Shown here: in pieces, positions 23,178 to 29,549 of the stretch | How the letters are laid out: every line of letters starts with the position of its first letter | Numbering within the stretch: position 1 is the first letter of the stretch | Position numbers and translations under genes: made by a program | Notes under the pieces: generated by a model | Databases searched by the model: none | What the model saw: the letters and a program-made list of their open reading frames with translations, nothing else | Told to the model about the DNA's origin: nothing | NCBI RefSeq assembly: GCF_004028275.1 | Contig: NZ_CP035033.1 | Coordinates: 992,001-1,056,000, forward strand | Direction: 5' to 3' | DNA length: 64,000 nt | Source: Hydrogenovibrio thermophilus | Lineage (GTDB): Bacteria; Pseudomonadota; Gammaproteobacteria; Thiomicrospirales; Thiomicrospiraceae

Positions 23178-24614
23178 ATGAACTTTGTTATTCCCAGTTT
23201 TACCCCTGCAATTCCAGAGATTGTCTTATTGACCCTGACATCTTTGTTGTTGGTTGCAGACACTATCTGGTCTAAGCGTAGCGAATTCGCAACCTATTAT
23301 GCCACTCAGTTAATCTTGGTTGTCGTGGGTTATTTGGTTTTAACCAGTTTCTCTGTGGAGCAAGTACTGACGTTCGACGGAAGTTTTGTGCGTGATGCTT
23401 TCGGCGATGTGCTGAAGCTCTTCATCGTCATTATTTCAATAGGGGTTTTCCTGTTCTCGAAAGAATATCTTCTGCAGCAAAAATTCTATCGGGGTGAATA
23501 TTTCACCTTAGGATTGTTCGGTGTGCTGGGCATGTTTGTCATGGTGTCCGCTTATAACCTGATTACCTTGTACCTGGGGCTGGAAATCATGTCCTTGGCA
23601 ATCTATGCGATGGTGGCCATGCGTAAGGACAACCAATTCGCCTTGGAATCGGCCATGAAATACTTTGTGTTGGGCGCATTGGCCACCGGTATGTTGTTGT
23701 ATGGCTTCTCGATGCTTTACGGGGCGACCGGTACCATCCAATTCAATGAAATGGCCGATGTGATTGCTTCCGGCAATGTGGATCACGTGGTCTTGTCATT
23801 CGGCGTGGTCTTTGTGGTCATCGGTTTGGCATTCAAACTGGGGGCAGTACCATTCCATATGTGGGTGCCGGACGTTTACCATGGTGCACCAACCGCCGTG
23901 ACACTATACCTTGGTACGGCACCAAAGCTTGCGGCCTTTGCCATCATGTACCGTCTATTGGTGGAAGGTCTGCCAGGCCTGGTGGAAGATTGGCAATCAT
24001 TGATTATCATGATTTCCATTCTGTCGTTGATTGTCGGTGCCGTTATCACCTTGGTGCAGGATAACCTGAAACGTCTATTGGCCTATTCCGGTATCGGGCA
24101 CGTCGGTTTCCTATTGTTGGGCATTATCGCCGCGAATCCGGACGGTTATTCCGCCGCGATGTTCTATGTCATCGTCTACGCCATCACGGCCGTCGCTGGG
24201 TTCGGCATGATTACCGCTTTGGCGAGAACCGGCAATGAATTCGACTTGATTGCTGACTTCAAAGGCATGAACAAGCGCAACCCTTGGTTGGCGTTAATGA
24301 TGTTATTCGTCATGTTCTCTATGGCCGGTATTCCGCCATTTGTCGGCTTCTATGCGAAAGTGGTCGTGATTGAAGAAGTGGTGGCGGCTGGCTTCACTTG
24401 GTTGGCGATTCTAGCCGTGGTGACGGCGGTTATCAGTGCTTTCTACTATTTGAAAGTGGTCAAGGTTATGTACTTTGATGAGCCGGACGATAACGCTAAA
24501 ATCGAGCCGATCAGTAATCAGCTGAACTGGGCCGTGAGCTTTGTTTCCATTGCCTTGTTGCTGCTTGGGTTGATGCCGTCGCCATTGATTACGCTGTGTT
24601 ACAATAGTTTGTAA
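23178..24614 (+). CDS. nuoN: NADH-quinone oxidoreductase subunit N
   Basis: NuoN (ND2 type) is the third antiporter-like subunit. The 478-residue protein has about 14 membrane helices, with YLGLEIMSLAIYAMVA, FKLGAVPFHMWVPDVYHGAPTAVTLYLGTAPKLAA and YSGIGHVGFLLLGI motifs. It ends the complex I operon and is followed by an intrinsic terminator. One CCAGGCCTGG copy (23973) encodes Pro-Gly-Leu. Confidence 0.97.
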   Translation: MNFVIPSFTPAIPEIVLLTLTSLLLVADTIWSKRSEFATYYATQLILVVVGYLVLTSFSVEQVLTFDGSFVRDAFGDVLKLFIVIISIGVFLFSKEYLLQQKFYRGEYFTLGLFGVLGMFVMVSAYNLITLYLGLEIMSLAIYAMVAMRKDNQFALESAMKYFVLGALATGMLLYGFSMLYGATGTIQFNEMADVIASGNVDHVVLSFGVVFVVIGLAFKLGAVPFHMWVPDVYHGAPTAVTLYLGTAPKLAAFAIMYRLLVEGLPGLVEDWQSLIIMISILSLIVGAVITLVQDNLKRLLAYSGIGHVGFLLLGIIAANPDGYSAAMFYVIVYAITAVAGFGMITALARTGNEFDLIADFKGMNKRNPWLALMMLFVMFSMAGIPPFVGFYAKVVVIEEVVAAGFTWLAILAVVTAVISAFYYLKVVKVMYFDEPDDNAKIEPISNQLNWAVSFVSIALLLLGLMPSPLITLCYNSL

Positions 24615-24624
24615 TATTAATCCT

Positions 24625-24648
24625 AGCCCGTTCCAAACGGGCTTTTTT
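24625..24648 (+). terminator. Intrinsic terminator ending the nuo operon
   Basis: AGCCCGTT and AACGGGCT pair around a CCA loop, followed by six T residues, 11 bp after the nuoN stop. Some read-through into the next gene is likely, because that gene starts only 19 bp beyond the T-run. Confidence 0.88.
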
Positions 24649-24666
24649 GCTTGAAGGAGTGTTGTT

Positions 24667-25005
24667 ATGACAGTCGACACCGCTGTTTGGGTTTTATTGG
24701 TCACGGCCATCGTTTTAGCGAATATTCCTTGGATTCTGTCCAATCGAGTATTTATCTTTATCCCGGTTCAAAAAGCCAAATCCATTTGGTTTAACTTTGC
24801 CGAATGGTTTTTGTACTTCCTGGTGACCGGCATCTTTGCTTACCTGTTAGAAAACAAAGCGATGGGGCATGTCAAACCACAAGAATGGGAGTTTTATGTG
24901 GTGACGTTCTTTATGTTTGCCATCTTCTCTTTCCCTGGGTTTATCTACCGCTACAACCTGAAAATGTTTTTGGACAAGGCACGCGGTAAGAAACAAGCGG
25001 CCTAA
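24667..25005 (+). CDS. DUF2818 family membrane protein
   Basis: The 112-residue protein has an N-terminal membrane helix (about 5-25) and two further helices (about 40-62 and 77-97), with the conserved-looking NIPWILSNRVFIF and WFLYFLVTG stretches. Small DUF2818 proteins are known directly after nuoN in many beta- and gammaproteobacteria, and this one occupies that place. A link to complex I assembly or stability has been suggested only by position; the sequence shows no cofactor motif. A GAAGGAG ribosome-binding site lies upstream of the ATG. Confidence 0.75.
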   Translation: MTVDTAVWVLLVTAIVLANIPWILSNRVFIFIPVQKAKSIWFNFAEWFLYFLVTGIFAYLLENKAMGHVKPQEWEFYVVTFFMFAIFSFPGFIYRYNLKMFLDKARGKKQAA

Positions 25006-25042
25006 TTGCCCTTTACATCAACATCTGTTTTATTGATTCTTG

Positions 25043-25065
25043 AATCAGGCCTTTCTGGCCTGATT
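25043..25065. terminator. Hairpin after the DUF2818 gene
   Basis: A 9-bp perfect stem (AATCAGGCC with its complement) around loop TTTCT lies 38 bp after the stop codon. The tract behind it is pyrimidine-rich but not a pure T-run, so termination may be partial. Confidence 0.5.
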
Positions 25066-25135
25066 ACTATCTTCCTTGCTTTTACCGTCTAATCGCTTAA
25101 TATTGAACCTCATTAATTTAGATTTTGAGTGCCTT

Positions 25136-25909
25136 ATGAAACCATCCATTCCGATTGAAACCGCTGGCAAAGGTTGTTCGCAATGCCATAAAGACTTGGG
25201 TTTCGAGTTTTCGTTCGCTTTTCAACCCATTGTGAATGTGCGTGAAGCCACGATTTTTGGTTATGAGGCTTTGGTGCGGGGCACAGAAGGGCAAGGGGCT
25301 TTTTTTATCTTGAATCAGGTGGGGGCCGATAACCGTTACGCTTTTGACCAGGCCTGCCGCGTAAAGGCGATTGGCTTGGCAGCCAAATTGAACCTTCAGC
25401 AAGTGATCAGTATTAATTTCCTGCCCAATGCCGTTTATGAACCGGAACACTGCATTCAAAGCACTCTGAAAGCCGCAAAAGCCAACGATTTCCCGATTGA
25501 ACGGATCATGTTTGAAATCACCGAATCCGAACAGGTCTATGATTTGGATCACATGACCAAGATTTTTGATTACTATCAAAGAAGCGGGTTTATCACGGCG
25601 CTTGATGATTTTGGCGCTGGGCACGCAGGCCTAAATACCTTGTCGCGGTTCGTTCCCAATATCCTGAAAATTGATATCAATCTCGTCTCTAATATCCATC
25701 GTGATGCCGTCAAACAATCCATCTTTAAAGGTTTGAGTTCGATTGCCTCCGATTTGAATTTTACGTTATTGGCCGAGGGAATCGAGCAGGAAGAAGAGGC
25801 TCTGTATTTCAAGGAAGCGGGCGTCGAGTTAATGCAAGGCTATTATTTTGCCAAGCCCGGCTTTGAAACCCTGCCGACAGTTGATTTTGCCAGCAAAGTG
25901 TTTGGTTGA
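25136..25909 (+). CDS. EAL-domain cyclic-di-GMP phosphodiesterase
   Basis: This is a stand-alone EAL protein of 257 residues. EAL enzymes cleave c-di-GMP to pGpG. All key motifs are present: YEALVRG (the EAL Glu), SINFLPN (Asn ligand), FEITESE, ALDDFGAG, LKIDIN (Lys-x-Asp), LLAEGIEQEEE and LMQGYYFAKP. It is therefore probably active. No sensory or membrane domain precedes it, except a short N-terminal segment with a CSQC pair at about residues 12-15 that could bind a metal or respond to redox state (inference). The start at 25136 is the last ATG before the conserved region. An upstream in-frame ATG at 25076 would add 20 hydrophobic residues. Confidence 0.9.
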   Translation: MKPSIPIETAGKGCSQCHKDLGFEFSFAFQPIVNVREATIFGYEALVRGTEGQGAFFILNQVGADNRYAFDQACRVKAIGLAAKLNLQQVISINFLPNAVYEPEHCIQSTLKAAKANDFPIERIMFEITESEQVYDLDHMTKIFDYYQRSGFITALDDFGAGHAGLNTLSRFVPNILKIDINLVSNIHRDAVKQSIFKGLSSIASDLNFTLLAEGIEQEEEALYFKEAGVELMQGYYFAKPGFETLPTVDFASKVFG

Positions 25910-26236
25910 TTTGTAATGTATTGTTTCTAAAGACAAATTTTGGACAATAGAAAAGCCAGACTTCATAAAGTAATGAACATCTGGCTTTCCAGAGTGCTAG
26001 ATTAAACCAATGATTTTGAGGATAGTCAAAAGCATAATTGTTTGATTTTGAATACTATATTTGTTTTTGAAGATCGTTTAGAAGAAAGAGTCGCTAAATG
26101 TTATTCACGAATTTATTAAAAATACAGCAAAATTTAAATAATTTATAACTTAAATATATCAAAAATCTTGTTAAAAAAATTCAAAGAAGTAATACTAGTT
26201 TTTAGGCAATAAAAGGGACTTAATGAGAATTAATTT
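25910..26236. other. AT-rich gap with one hairpin repeat, no gene seen
   Basis: This 327-bp gap is strongly AT-rich and marks the left edge of the islet. It holds hairpin copy R1 at 25951-25990 and no open frame that I can support. The base composition changes abruptly after the EAL gene. Confidence 0.6.
25951..25990 (-). repeat. Hairpin repeat R1 (tRNA-terminator-like)
   Basis: AAAGCCAGA at 25952 and TCTGGCTTT at 25980 form a 9-bp stem. Read on the minus strand it ends in a short T-run. It is nearly identical to R2 (27693-27741), differing by a 10-bp gap and one base. It also resembles the terminator after the initiator tRNA (28632-28660). R1 and R2 flank the orphan 409-aa gene as direct repeats. 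Confidence 0.75.
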
Positions 26237-27466
26237 ATGTATGATGATTACGACTATAAGCTGACTGAAAAAAGAATTAAGTTTGAATTCATTCAAGAAG
26301 ATGATATTTCTATTTACCCTTGGGAAGTTGGTAGATTTATAAACGATCTAAATACAAATTACTATAAATTTGAATTACTCAATTCCATTTCGACAGCTTT
26401 AATAAATGATATTGACCCGCAAAATATTATTATTCTAAATAAATCATTACCGCTTCATAAAAACTACACTCATTTAGATGTTATTGATGCCAAAAATAAT
26501 GGTCTTTCATTTATTTATGAAATTGGCGCAATGCACTCACTTAGTCCGTCCCTGGAAATTGCAGAGCTTTCTGCTGCACTCGATTTATTTCGATCCTTTA
26601 ATAGTAGATTACACGGCGCAAATCACCAGCCTTTATCTCTAAAAAAACTAACAGCTTTATATGAAAGTATTAAGCAAAATGGAATCCATAGCGCTCCAAA
26701 AGCAATGCTTGAATTAGTAGCTAAAAAAAAGACAAAGAAAAAAGAATTACCAAGTTTTGAAAAATCTATTTTGGATTTTAATTCAAAAATAGAGGGGGTA
26801 GTTAATCAGTTTAAGTTATCAAAATTAATTGATATAAATGATACTGAAAAAAATTATCCCAAAGATTTTCCTAAAGGATTACCTAAAAAGTTTTTTAATT
26901 ATTTTGAATTCTTGTTTATTAAATTACATAGACCAGTAGTACTTCTTAAAGAAGAGGATCAATTTAGAGTACTTGGTCGGTCTTTAGTCAATAAATCAAG
27001 CAAAAGAATTAAAGGGCTTGAACTGATTGAAATGCCTAGAAATAGCCCTCTTCGAGGTATATTTGAAGGTGGTGCAGCTGTCTATAGGACAATACAAGAA
27101 GAAAAAAGAGCTAATGAGCTTCATGAATATGAAAAAAAAGATCGACAACTTGCTCTTAAAGAAAGGGCATTGGCTCTTGAAGAGCAAAAGGCAAGGTTTC
27201 TTGAAAATAGATCGATCGCTGCAGAAAAAATGAAACAAGAAAAATTAAAAACTGATGCATTACAAAAGTTGAATTTAGAGTTAACTGAAATTTCAGAGAA
27301 ATCTGATGTCACTTCTCATGAAAAATTGGGAAATCAATATCATGAAATGCAAGTTAAGAGTTTACTTAAAATGGTTGATAATCAAACATATTCAACTATA
27401 AATAGTAAAGGCTTTAAGCTTTTGCCGGAGAAAACGGAGATAAAAACAATTGATATAACAGTATGA
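26237..27466 (+). CDS. Orphan AT-rich gene, coiled-coil protein of unknown function
   Basis: I do not recognise this 409-residue protein. It has no signal peptide and no clear membrane segment. The first 140 residues are mixed and acidic, followed by a Lys-rich linker (about 165-175). A hydrophobic-aromatic block (about 225-240) is followed by a segment with many charged residues. A predicted coiled coil spans about 285-355, very rich in Glu, Lys and Ala. Codon use is strongly AT-biased, unlike the neighbouring genes. It lies alone in the islet between hairpin repeats R1 and R2 next to a tRNA gene, which suggests horizontal acquisition. Such islets often carry defence genes, but nothing in the sequence proves that. 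The ribosome-binding site is weak. Confidence 0.75.
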   Translation: MYDDYDYKLTEKRIKFEFIQEDDISIYPWEVGRFINDLNTNYYKFELLNSISTALINDIDPQNIIILNKSLPLHKNYTHLDVIDAKNNGLSFIYEIGAMHSLSPSLEIAELSAALDLFRSFNSRLHGANHQPLSLKKLTALYESIKQNGIHSAPKAMLELVAKKKTKKKELPSFEKSILDFNSKIEGVVNQFKLSKLIDINDTEKNYPKDFPKGLPKKFFNYFEFLFIKLHRPVVLLKEEDQFRVLGRSLVNKSSKRIKGLELIEMPRNSPLRGIFEGGAAVYRTIQEEKRANELHEYEKKDRQLALKERALALEEQKARFLENRSIAAEKMKQEKLKTDALQKLNLELTEISEKSDVTSHEKLGNQYHEMQVKSLLKMVDNQTYSTINSKGFKLLPEKTEIKTIDITV

Positions 27467-27610
27467 ATTATTATCATTTAATTTTACGCTTTCGTATTAA
27501 TAACTTAATGGCGTATAAGATTAATTAAATGTCAAAATCCTATTAAAGTACTTCAAATTAGATTTATCTAATATAGATAAAGTTAAAAGAGGTGGCAGGG
27601 GGAGTTGTTA

Positions 27611-27679
27611 GTGAAAAAATCTCTTGTTGTATCTATATACATGCCAAGTTTTGGCACTATATTATTGGCCACTCATTAG
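27611..27679 (+). CDS. Possible 22-residue hydrophobic peptide
   Basis: A GTG-initiated frame encodes 22 residues, with a hydrophobic centre after a Lys-Lys pair (VKKSLVVSIYMPSF at its start). A purine-rich GGGGGAG lies 8-9 bp upstream, a good Shine-Dalgarno match in an otherwise AT-rich region. Small hydrophobic peptides occur in type I toxin modules, but there is no independent support, so this may be chance. Confidence 0.2.
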   Translation: MKKSLVVSIYMPSFGTILLATH

Positions 27680-27692
27680 ATTTTTAAGTAAT

Positions 27693-27741
27693 AAAAAAGC
27701 CAGACTTCAGAACTTTTGTTAAAGTAATGAATATCTGGCTT
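27693..27741 (-). repeat. Hairpin repeat R2 (tRNA-terminator-like)
   Basis: AAGCCAGA and TCTGGCTT form an 8-bp stem. On the minus strand it is followed by a run of T (AAAAAA on the plus strand at 27693-27698). It immediately follows, in minus-strand sense, the tRNA-fMet tail duplicate, just as the real terminator follows the intact tRNA. It shares two long identical blocks with R1. Confidence 0.78.
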
Positions 27742-27747
27742 CCAGAA

Positions 27748-27790
27748 ATTTGGTAGCGGGGGCTGGATTTGAACCAACGACCTTCGGGTT
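27748..27790 (-). repeat. Duplicate of the tRNA-fMet 3' end (attachment-site-like)
   Basis: These 43 bp are identical to 28663-28705, the 3' part of the initiator tRNA gene from the anticodon loop to the CCA and three bases beyond. Identity stops inside the anticodon loop on one side. Partial tRNA-end duplicates in direct orientation are the classic footprint of integration at a tRNA gene. They bracket an 872-bp segment that contains only vapBC. No integrase gene remains in the window. Confidence 0.88.
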
Positions 27791-27879
27791 GTTAGTCAAA
27801 AATTAACAATATCAACAACTTGTAAACACTCTTCTTATCTTTTCTACAAATCTAATCTACTCTATACGGATTAAATAAA

Positions 27880-27917
27880 TTGACCTTGTTTTAAAAGTAT
27901 ATACAATAAAGTATATA
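27880..27917 (+). promoter_or_regulatory. vapBC promoter with overlapping operator
   Basis: TTGACC (27880) and TACAAT (27902) are separated by 16 bp, a good sigma-70 promoter. A perfect inverted repeat, TATATAC-N6-GTATATA at 27898-27917, overlaps the -10. VapBC complexes normally repress their own promoter by binding such palindromes, so autoregulation is likely. Confidence 0.72.
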
Positions 27918-27942
27918 TTTAATTAAAGGAAGGGGATTTATT

Positions 27943-28170
27943 ATGGAAGCTAGAATTTTCCAATCCGGAAACAGTCAAGCCGTTAGAATTCCGAAAGAAT
28001 TTCGTTTTGATGTCACGGAAGTTGAAATCTTTAAGCGTGGCGATGAAATCGTTTTAAAGCCGAAACCCAAAAATTTAGGAGCCGCTTTTAAATTGCTTGG
28101 TGAGATGCCAGACGATTTTATGGTTGATGGACGTGAAGACACCTTACCTCAAGAAAGAGAGTCTTTTTAA
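27943..28170 (+). CDS. vapB: Antitoxin VapB (AbrB/MazE-like DNA-binding)
   Basis: The 75-residue protein has an N-terminal SpoVT/AbrB swapped-hairpin domain (about 1-45), with ARIFQSGNSQAVRIPKEFRF being typical of VapB/VagC antitoxins. The C-terminal tail is acidic and flexible, as needed to wrap the toxin. It neutralises VapC and represses the operon. GGAAGGGG lies upstream of the ATG. vapC follows two bases after its stop. It lies inside the segment bounded by tRNA-end repeats. Confidence 0.92.
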   Translation: MEARIFQSGNSQAVRIPKEFRFDVTEVEIFKRGDEIVLKPKPKNLGAAFKLLGEMPDDFMVDGREDTLPQERESF

Positions 28171-28172
28171 TT

Positions 28173-28568
28173 ATGTATGTCCTTGATACCAATATCTGCA
28201 TTTACATTATTAAAAAACAACCGCCTAGCGTTTTTGAAAAGTTCGAGAATTTGCCTTTAGGTTCAGTCTCTATGTCATTAGTGACGTTTGGAGAGTTGGA
28301 ATATGGAGCGATGAGAAGTAACAACTCAGAAAAAGCACTGAATATTCTGGATGAATTGATTAACTATATTCCCGTTTTACCAATGGGAACCAATGTGGCC
28401 AAACACTATGCCGATATACGAGCAGATTTAGCAAAAAAAGGAACGCTTATTGGCAATAATGATCTATGGATCGCCGCGCATACAAGGTCGCTTGATCATA
28501 CTTTAGTGAGTAATAACATTAAAGAATTTGAAAGAGTTGAAAGCCTTGAGTTTGAAAATTGGGTGTGA
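28173..28568 (+). CDS. vapC: Toxin VapC (PIN-domain ribonuclease)
   Basis: VapC toxins are Mg-dependent RNases, several of which cut initiator tRNA-fMet in the anticodon loop. The 131-residue PIN domain keeps the acidic residues: Asp5 in LDTN, Glu41 in FGELEYG and Asp97 in NNDLWIAAHT. The SNNIKEFERV end is also typical. It sits directly behind vapB. The module lies next to the tRNA-fMet gene it may target, but the target is inferred from family knowledge only. A CCAGGCCTGG palindrome lies 14 bp after the stop. Confidence 0.93.
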   Translation: MYVLDTNICIYIIKKQPPSVFEKFENLPLGSVSMSLVTFGELEYGAMRSNNSEKALNILDELINYIPVLPMGTNVAKHYADIRADLAKKGTLIGNNDLWIAAHTRSLDHTLVSNNIKEFERVESLEFENWV

Positions 28569-28581
28569 TAGAACGAATTTG

Positions 28582-28591
28582 CCAGGCCTGG
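28582..28591. repeat. Palindrome CCAGGCCTGG after vapC
   Basis: An exact copy of the iterated palindrome 13 bp after the vapC stop codon. It lies inside the tRNA-bounded segment, so either the segment picked it up after arrival or it came from a related host. Confidence 0.85.
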
Positions 28592-28631
28592 TGGTTTTGA
28601 AAGAGTGTGTTGCTGGGTAAATTCTGGACAT

Positions 28632-28660
28632 AAAAAAACCAGACAAGTGTCTGGCTTTTG
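28632..28660 (-). terminator. Intrinsic terminator of tRNA-fMet
   Basis: On the minus strand CCAGAC and GTCTGG form a compact stem, followed by a run of seven T residues, directly after the tRNA 3' end. The sequence is related to repeats R1 and R2. Confidence 0.85.
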
Positions 28661-28665
28661 GTATT

Positions 28666-28742
<77 letters not shown>

Positions 28743-28758
28743 TCAATTGATGTGGCGT

Positions 28759-28786
28759 ATTATAGAGTGTTACGAGAATATTTCAA
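28759..28786 (-). promoter_or_regulatory. Promoter of tRNA-fMet
   Basis: On the minus strand TTGAAA and TATAAT are separated by 16 bp, with the -10 ending 17 bp before the tRNA 5' end. Both hexamers are close to the sigma-70 consensus. Confidence 0.8.
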
Positions 28787-28819
28787 GGACTTTCCCGGAT
28801 TAATTTCGTAATCCCTTCA

Positions 28820-28843
28820 AAAACGGCCAGGCCTGGCCGTTTT
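28820..28843. terminator. 24-bp palindrome with CCAGGCCTGG core, likely terminator of the DUF2726 gene
   Basis: CCAGGCCTGG is extended on both sides by ACGG/CCGT-type arms and by A and T runs into a perfect 24-bp palindrome. It lies 49 bp past the 3' end of the minus-strand DUF2726 gene. The T-run on either strand makes it a plausible bidirectional terminator. Confidence 0.7.
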
Positions 28844-28891
28844 AACTATTTAAATCCGGTTTTTATGGAAAGATGTTTGATGGTTTGAGCC

Positions 28892-29428
28892 CTAGCTAGG
28901 GGAAACAATTTTCTTGGCGATCGTCTCGGCAATGTGTTCTTCCAAATATTTATGCTGTGTATTGATCATGACTAAAGGTACGTTGGCACTTTGGAAGGCC
29001 TCTAAAATGAACTGGTCTCTAGTCTTCCGGTCCTTTCTTTGATGTGACGGGTCGTTCAGCTCAACAGCACAGAGCAAGTTTAAGTTTTGGTCTGTAATTA
29101 CAAAGTCGATGTGCTTTTGACTAATTTGAGAAAAAAGCCAATGCCAGCCGCTTCCTTTTTCAAACTTATTGACGGCCGGTGTCAGAATATCGGAAACCCT
29201 GACTTTGCCAAAAACCTTTAATTCATCGCCCGCGATGGATTCTAAAACCGATAGAAACTTCTTTTCGGTTGCAGTGAAAAGTTGAGCCTGAGGCTTATAT
29301 TTAATGGGATGTTTTCTTTGTCCTTGGCTCGCAGTCGTAGTGGACTTTCGTTTATGAGCAAGGCTAAAAAAATACAAAATAGAAAGTAAAATTAGAGCGC
29401 CGAACAGAAATAAAACAAATTCAACCAT
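28892..29428 (-). CDS. DUF2726 domain protein with one membrane anchor
   Basis: The 178-residue protein begins with a membrane helix (about 2-22), then a basic linker and a DUF2726 domain (about 50-175). It shows LFTATEKKFLSVLESI, VFGKVRVSDIL, HIDFVITD and AVELNDPSHQRKDRKTRDQFILEAF. The D..E.ND.SH..... pattern resembles the core of restriction-endonuclease-like folds known in this family. Its role is not established. Nuclease-fold similarity and the neighbouring islet make a nucleic-acid role possible, but this is only inference. Confidence 0.75.
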   Translation of the reverse strand: MVEFVLFLFGALILLSILYFFSLAHKRKSTTTASQGQRKHPIKYKPQAQLFTATEKKFLSVLESIAGDELKVFGKVRVSDILTPAVNKFEKGSGWHWLFSQISQKHIDFVITDQNLNLLCAVELNDPSHQRKDRKTRDQFILEAFQSANVPLVMINTQHKYLEEHIAETIAKKIVSPS

Positions 29429-29549
29429 TGTTATAATTACTTATTTTTTGAATATATGAATCTTAGTGTAATCATAAATTGGAATCAAATTATTTTGAGA
29501 AGGGGAGTATTGCATTACCTATTCTTATTTAATTAAACCAAAATCACTT

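Follow-up and report, generated by a model that had tools for sequence, protein, structure and literature searches.

The gene described here lies within a 64,000-nucleotide stretch of Hydrogenovibrio thermophilus DNA, referred to below as the window, and encodes a protein whose family is undescribed in Pfam, in PADLOC and in the literature searched. That this cargo gene was horizontally acquired and is sited at tRNA-fMet is almost certain. The reading of its function that we tentatively favour, and to which we give slightly under an even chance, is that of a stand-alone, single-gene anti-phage defence protein. The broader proposal of an undescribed single-gene anti-phage family with an unseen fold, spread thinly across the Gamma- and Betaproteobacteria and borne on islands at tRNA-fMet, tRNA-Pro and dusA, is possible and more doubtful.

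The open reading frame runs unbroken from ATG to TGA, and the choice of this ATG is supported by the M-[FY]-D-D-Y opening common to 6/6 family members in alignment A2. Its GC content is 0.302 and its GC3 0.203; when window ORFs of 200 aa or more are picked greedily without overlap, the 37 besides this one (38 in all) average 0.507 (sd 0.021). The cargo gene thus has the deviant base composition of a tRNA-integrated islet, and both the low GC of an AT-rich islet and the foreign origin proposed in an earlier note on this DNA are borne out, the latter by composition together with the tRNA-half repeats described below. The long charged helix of the protein is predicted in both structure models. 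Of the long coiled coil that had been proposed near the C terminus, the helix therefore stands, whereas the coiled coil itself is only plausible, heptad periodicity being modest (the best a/d register has a mean hydropathy of -0.36, against -0.44 to -2.07 for the other six). No membrane segment was found by hydropathy, the highest 19-residue mean being 1.08.

Features of the tRNA-fMet site and of the cargo gene in the window (positions count from the first nucleotide of the window).
Feature	Position	Strand	Basis
EAL-domain gene, RimA-like (under the cut-off of that model), flank common with congener G010	25136..25909	+	Pfam/NCBIfam
Hairpin copy 1, terminator on the outer edge of the cargo unit	25946..25993	-	z -7.1
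Degenerate tRNA-fMet 3' half (probable), next to hairpin copy 1	25995..26018	-	weak alone
Cargo gene, protein of an undescribed family, 409 aa	26237..27466	+	ORF, alignment
Cargo protein layout: conserved N-terminal block, residues 1-54; helical middle; conserved block, 232-279; long charged helix, ~271-355; short conserved tail			
Hairpin copy 2, terminator joined to the displaced tRNA half	27690..27745	-	z -5.3
Displaced tRNA-fMet 3' half, anticodon loop to CCA, att-site duplication	27748..27795	-	96% over 48 nt
vapB antitoxin gene, neighbouring insertion unit	27943..28170	+	Pfam/NCBIfam
vapC toxin gene, PIN domain	28173..28568	+	passes NCBIfam tRNA(fMet)-specific endonuclease VapC model
Intrinsic terminator of the intact tRNA-fMet	28631..28660	-	z -4.4; 1/200 shuffles folds equally well
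Intact initiator tRNA-fMet, putative integration target	28666..28742	-	only full-length match in genome

The anticodon arm GGG-CUCAUAA-CCC and a mismatch at 1:72 presumably mark the intact tRNA as an initiator. The gene had been placed beside a tRNA gene, and tRNA-fMet is indeed near; the immediate neighbour, however, is the 48-nt copy of its 3' half, with vapBC lying between this copy and the intact tRNA. The tRNA-half repeat is not expected by chance (mean of 0.00 over 100 shuffles); it flanks both ends of the vapBC unit but a single end of the cargo unit, on whose far side lies a weak, probably decayed copy. The score of that decayed copy was reached by 47/5000 simple shuffles; in the sister genome G010 the same EAL gene is directly followed by a tRNA half that is still recognisable (94% over 47 nt), and its matching place supports the window segment as a decayed half. 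A second match to the tRNA 3'-end pattern (at most two mismatches) occurs only in G000 and G010 of 11 genomes. A direct repeat of the tRNA 3' end, as expected of a tRNA-integrated islet, is thus present, and the gene is absent from close relatives at the same site: among 62 genomes of the order only its own is positive (0/61 others at E 0.01), and the slot in G010 is filled otherwise.

The repeated hairpins that had been noticed on either side of the gene are real. All three hairpins, including that of the intact tRNA, end in a T run on the tRNA strand and lie 3' of a tRNA copy, and for this reason the repeated hairpins are read as terminators belonging to tRNA-fMet copies; a role as regulators of the cargo gene is not favoured. 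Hairpin copy 2 and the copy that follows the EAL gene in G010 share an identical stretch of at least 60 nt. Within 24900-29500 Rfam models matched tRNA only, and a promoter scan returned 13 candidates against 12.0 expected, no better than chance.

Tyrosine integrases cross over in tRNA anticodon loops, and repeats that start at the anticodon loop fit such a crossover. We infer that the copies of the tRNA half and terminator are the footprint of stacked insertions: tyrosine-recombinase elements would have entered serially at the anticodon loop, with every arrival leaving behind a displaced 3' half of the tRNA and a terminator, and the recombinase would since have been lost from the islet. Since new insertions at the tRNA would push older cargo and halves outwards, the vapBC unit is probably the later arrival of the two, after the cargo unit. 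Because hairpin copy 2, next to the vapBC unit of the window, matches the one next to the EAL gene in G010 as described above, insertion units may also have been exchanged between copies. In its tRNA 3'-half direct repeat, its foreign composition and the presence of an integrase by the same tRNA in four congeners, the islet resembles tRNA-integrated satellites and islets; it differs in that no integrase stands among its own genes, and none like that of G010 was matched in its genome at E 1e-20.

Several further observations concern this locus. The vapC gene adjoins the genome's only full-length initiator tRNA gene, whose product is the likely target of the toxin. On the side of the tRNA away from the islet stands a DUF2726 gene (28892-29428), a homologue of which (62% over 144 residues) is found near the tRNA of G013. 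In 7/10 congeners (G005, G007, G008 and G011-G014) nuoN, a small gene and then tRNA-fMet come in this order on one strand; within 23178-28742 of the window the tRNA is oppositely oriented and the EAL gene intervenes, indicating a local rearrangement.

The description of the gene as an orphan did not hold, as five full-length relatives with 31-35% identity to the window protein exist. Four of these, from Paludibacterium purpuratum (locus L080), Herbaspirillum sp. GW103 (L081), Pseudomonas sp. R28(2017) (L082) and Pseudomonas sp. RIT623 (L083), are 402-415 aa long and 33-34% identical to the window protein (alignment A1); they were found by a 100-residue query (residues 28-127), whole-protein pattern scans having missed them. 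A profile of five sequences then identified the fifth, L095 (E 5e-133), in genome G1576 of the Paludibacterium family. The family is rare and scattered among the genomes searched, since both profile and single-sequence searches gave few positives beyond the genomes of the queries themselves: 2/61 genomes of the Paludibacterium family (G1576 and the query's own), 1/398 Pseudomonas genomes and 1/343 genomes of the Herbaspirillum family (in each case the query's own) were positive with the profile, and the window protein recovered only its own genome among 369 of the class (E 0.01). The scans of genome contigs depend on short exact peptides and are not exhaustive. Residues 1-285 gave eight genomes passing E 0.1 among 398 of the phylum, namely its own and seven others; the eight weak rows from those seven genomes (E 0.006-0.09) were rejected as relatives, as were a second place in the own genome (E 0.13) and H1, a hit on a Rhizobium plasmid (E 0.7, 30% across 96 residues), all being without a match to the family profile at E 1. 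Searches of phage, plasmid and viral-contig collections, and a DNA-level search of E. coli, yielded no family member; a plasmid search returned four Ketogulonicigenium rows at E 9.

Conservation in the six-member alignment A2 is concentrated in two blocks. Invariant residues number 26/60 at positions 1-60, 14/70 at 61-130 and 4/85 at 131-215, rise again to 21/70 at 216-285, and fall to 2/70 at 286-355 and 3/54 in the tail; the family signatures are YPWE, NT.YYK.ELLNSI, SLPL, RP.V, R..GR.LVNK, GLE..E and NSPL. The two Pseudomonas genes (L082 and L083) encode proteins 79% identical; among the 402 codons compared, substitutions fall on 225 third, 85 first and 46 second positions, an order that indicates purifying selection on the family.

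That no domain would be recognised in the protein had been foreseen correctly. The window protein matched no family in PADLOC-DB 2.0.0 up to E 5 or in PHROGs and no PDB sequence up to E 10, and the only Pfam and NCBIfam matches were sub-threshold: noise from DUF5384 (13.6 bits against a gathering cut-off of 25) and a best NCBIfam score of 8 bits against a cut-off of 289, both confined to the long helix. Membership of DUF5384 was rejected, the match being below cut-off, in the long helix only and in 1/6 members. PADLOC likewise gave no family for L080-L083 up to E 0.01, so that with the window protein five of the six members were covered (L095 was left out), and among all six no Pfam family scored above its cut-off or, even at E 10, matched more than one member. 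No segregation, replication or recombinase domain was matched in Pfam. The database copies comprised Pfam models to 2025, PADLOC of 2023 and NCBIfam of 2026, NCBIfam and PHROGs being scanned with the window protein alone. A match to a housekeeping family, which the earlier note had named as evidence against its proposal, did not appear. Searches of the literature by motif and topic returned no account of the family, motif strings seldom appearing in text.

Structure prediction, which had been suggested as a check, provided the long helix but no usable fold. The single-sequence model reached a pLDDT of 42, and that made from five sequences a pLDDT of 57.7 with a pTM of 0.45. For the latter Foldseek retrieved nothing at E <=0.001 (best 0.3 in the PDB and 0.02 among viral models). 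The best VIA rows were long helices and helical bundles, with mainly residues 103-213 compared, and the top row of this low-confidence model (Z 6.3) was a long-helix chain with an rmsd of 40.2 over 172 residues. No fold or active site was therefore recognised by Pfam, by the low-confidence model or by Foldseek and VIA, and as both models are too poor, the Foldseek and VIA negatives rule out no family.

Comparison of the gene neighbourhoods shows that the relatives do not occupy conserved core positions, a second outcome that would have spoken against the earlier proposal: when the 45 neighbouring ORFs up to 5 kb away and 80 aa or longer were compared across the six loci, none matched an ORF of another locus at E 1e-3. 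A gene of defence type adjoins the family gene in 3/6 loci, with strong matches in L081 and L083 and weaker ones in L082, although this is a count without matched controls, over a number of loci too small for statistics. In L081 the order is a type ISP/IIG restriction enzyme (E 3e-296), a NucS_C nuclease, the family gene, PDC-S46 (E 5e-274), an integrase and a dihydrouridine synthase (Dus), the restriction gene, nuclease, family gene and PDC-S46 all being on the same strand. In L083, whose contig offers 115 bases upstream of the family gene and 3.4 kb on the other side, the neighbours are a gene that Pfam does not recognise and a DNA cytosine methyltransferase (E 2e-82). The family gene of L082 directly follows tRNA-Pro and is itself followed by a partial type IV restriction match (PADLOC E 4e-19; Pfam HNH 20.5 against a cut-off of 21.4), a Schlafen-group-3 helicase (Pfam E 4e-103; PADLOC AbiO E 6e-12, PDC-S41 E 7e-16) and MazG; the infC, rplT and pheT region, recognised by eye, lies on the other flank. 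The neighbours of the homologues had been proposed as a check; in the other three loci no defence gene was recognised adjoining the family gene: in the window vapBC lies one unit away; L080 has insertion sequences, a DUF6765 gene and an FRG-domain gene as neighbours; and in L095 the family gene (GC 0.35 in a stretch of 0.60) stands beside a valS-like gene recognised by eye, the neighbours of L080 and L095 lying outside the PADLOC scan.

The PADLOC rows were scored without the model cut-offs, and ten random window ORFs served as a control, of which two gave generic matches (IetA/TRIP13; Cas3/SduA) with a best E of 2e-36. Above this level stand the best rows of L081 (restriction enzyme and PDC-S46) and L083, as well as those of the congeners G007, G008 and G010 described below, while it is not exceeded by the G009 row (E 6e-10), by the nuclease of L081 (E 1e-16) or by any L082 row (E 4e-19 to 6e-12).

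The same tRNA site could be followed over 7-14 kb in nine of the ten other genomes of the genus, G011 having only ~314 bases on the 3' side. An integrase like that of G010 stands next to tRNA-fMet in 4/9 congeners (G009, G010, G012 and G014), that of G014 being a remnant with an internal stop, and defence-type genes lie within 4 kb on the 3' side of the tRNA in 4/9 (G007-G010, with a weak match in G009). G007 carries type I restriction R and S subunits and Septu PtuA/PtuB (E 9e-200, 9e-89) from 0.4 kb. In G008 type I R and S subunits (E 9e-55, 6e-286) begin at 1.1 kb, behind a 287-aa gene common to G013 (90% identity), and are thus near the tRNA rather than at its end. G009 has, 1.0 kb away and beyond the integrase, an 829-aa protein with a weakly matched ThsA-like region (E 6e-10), which we take to be SIR2 in nature. 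In G010 a DRT3 system (Drt3a E 4e-101, Drt3b E 1e-194) lies 3.5 kb from the tRNA, also beyond the integrase; the vapBC pair is present, and the slot that corresponds to the cargo gene holds DUF4345, NmrA and AraC genes, from which it follows that not all cargo at this site is defence. Inspection of the ORF lists by eye recognised no island at tRNA-fMet in G005, G006 or G013, and only the integrase remnant in G014.

Other stretches within these genomes deserve mention in their own right. In G012 two genes without a PADLOC match (315 and 666 aa; L097, 9999-12959) stand beside the integrase as more cargo of the tRNA-fMet site. In G010 the stretch L037 5190-12127, with the DRT3 pair, 211-aa and 420-aa genes without a Pfam match and the integrase at tRNA-fMet, is perhaps a compact DRT3-carrying mobile element. 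It shares with the window the same tRNA, a vapBC neighbour and the flanking EAL gene, and differs in having two reverse transcriptases and an integrase where the window has a single gene. A second tRNA-Met of G009 (L096, 4660-6970) is followed by a gene pair resembling, by eye, an AAA-type ATPase and an RloB-like protein, and may also be a landing site.

Three lines together favour a stand-alone anti-phage protein: the absence of a common partner, the defence-type genes that accompany some relatives, and the landing sites. It is somewhat unlikely that the gene is instead island cargo with some other function, such as stress response, regulation or DNA/RNA metabolism, that merely shares landing sites with defence genes. 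The non-defence genes in the matching slot of G010, the three family loci without an adjacent recognised defence gene and the L082 matches, no stronger than control, all speak for such a function; against it, the family genes of L081 and L083 adjoin strong restriction, methylation or candidate defence matches, and L082 apparently lies in the counterpart of a published core defence hotspot, as far as the available part of that account describes it (PMC10250203). Improbable is a role in maintenance or addiction, in which the protein would stabilise or regulate the inserted element as vapBC does: the cargo gene is one unit from vapBC in the same stack of insertions, but no neighbour of at least 80 aa is common to the six loci, no segregation, replication or recombinase domain was matched and the relatives reside in unrelated types of island. 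That the protein is a detached accessory component of a restriction or nuclease system of several genes, as suggested by the position of the L081 gene on one strand between the restriction gene with its NucS_C nuclease and PDC-S46, is very improbable given that no neighbour is shared by the six loci and no recognisable partner is present in the window or in L095.

Were the protein indeed a stand-alone defence protein, the absence of a membrane segment suggests that it would be cytosolic, and the variable charged helix beside conserved blocks that it might oligomerise through this helix. The presence of two conserved blocks suggests separate sites for sensing and acting, so that one (1-54 or 232-279) would sense a phage product and the other would act on the host or the phage. 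Infection would probably be stopped by halting the cell; abortive infection is common among such genes, which is our sole reason for naming it the likeliest mode.

Some features of the family's landing sites recall known systems. The core defence hotspot cDHS1 of P. aeruginosa is flanked by pheS, pheT, rplT, ihfA and a proline tRNA in the part of the account available (PMC10250203), and L082, directly after tRNA-Pro and adjoining a flank of translation genes matched by eye, appears to lie at its Pseudomonas counterpart. At the window site, too, a tRNA has defence-type genes of various kinds close by, but this is tRNA-fMet in an unrelated genus, and the cargo family is unnamed in that part of the cDHS1 account (PMC10250203). 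The L081 region, at whose end an integrase stands next to a dihydrouridine synthase gene, resembles the dusA genomic islands as far as these are described in the portion of the source at hand (PMC4482086); the likeness is one of gene order alone, and the target there is a protein gene, not a tRNA.

This analysis places what had looked like an orphan in a protein family now defined by six sequences and two conserved blocks. If the protein proves protective against phage, it would add a defence family unrecognised by the 2023 copy of PADLOC. The tRNA-fMet site of the genus is a likely defence hotspot and a place in which further unknown cargo, for example that of G012, may be sought.
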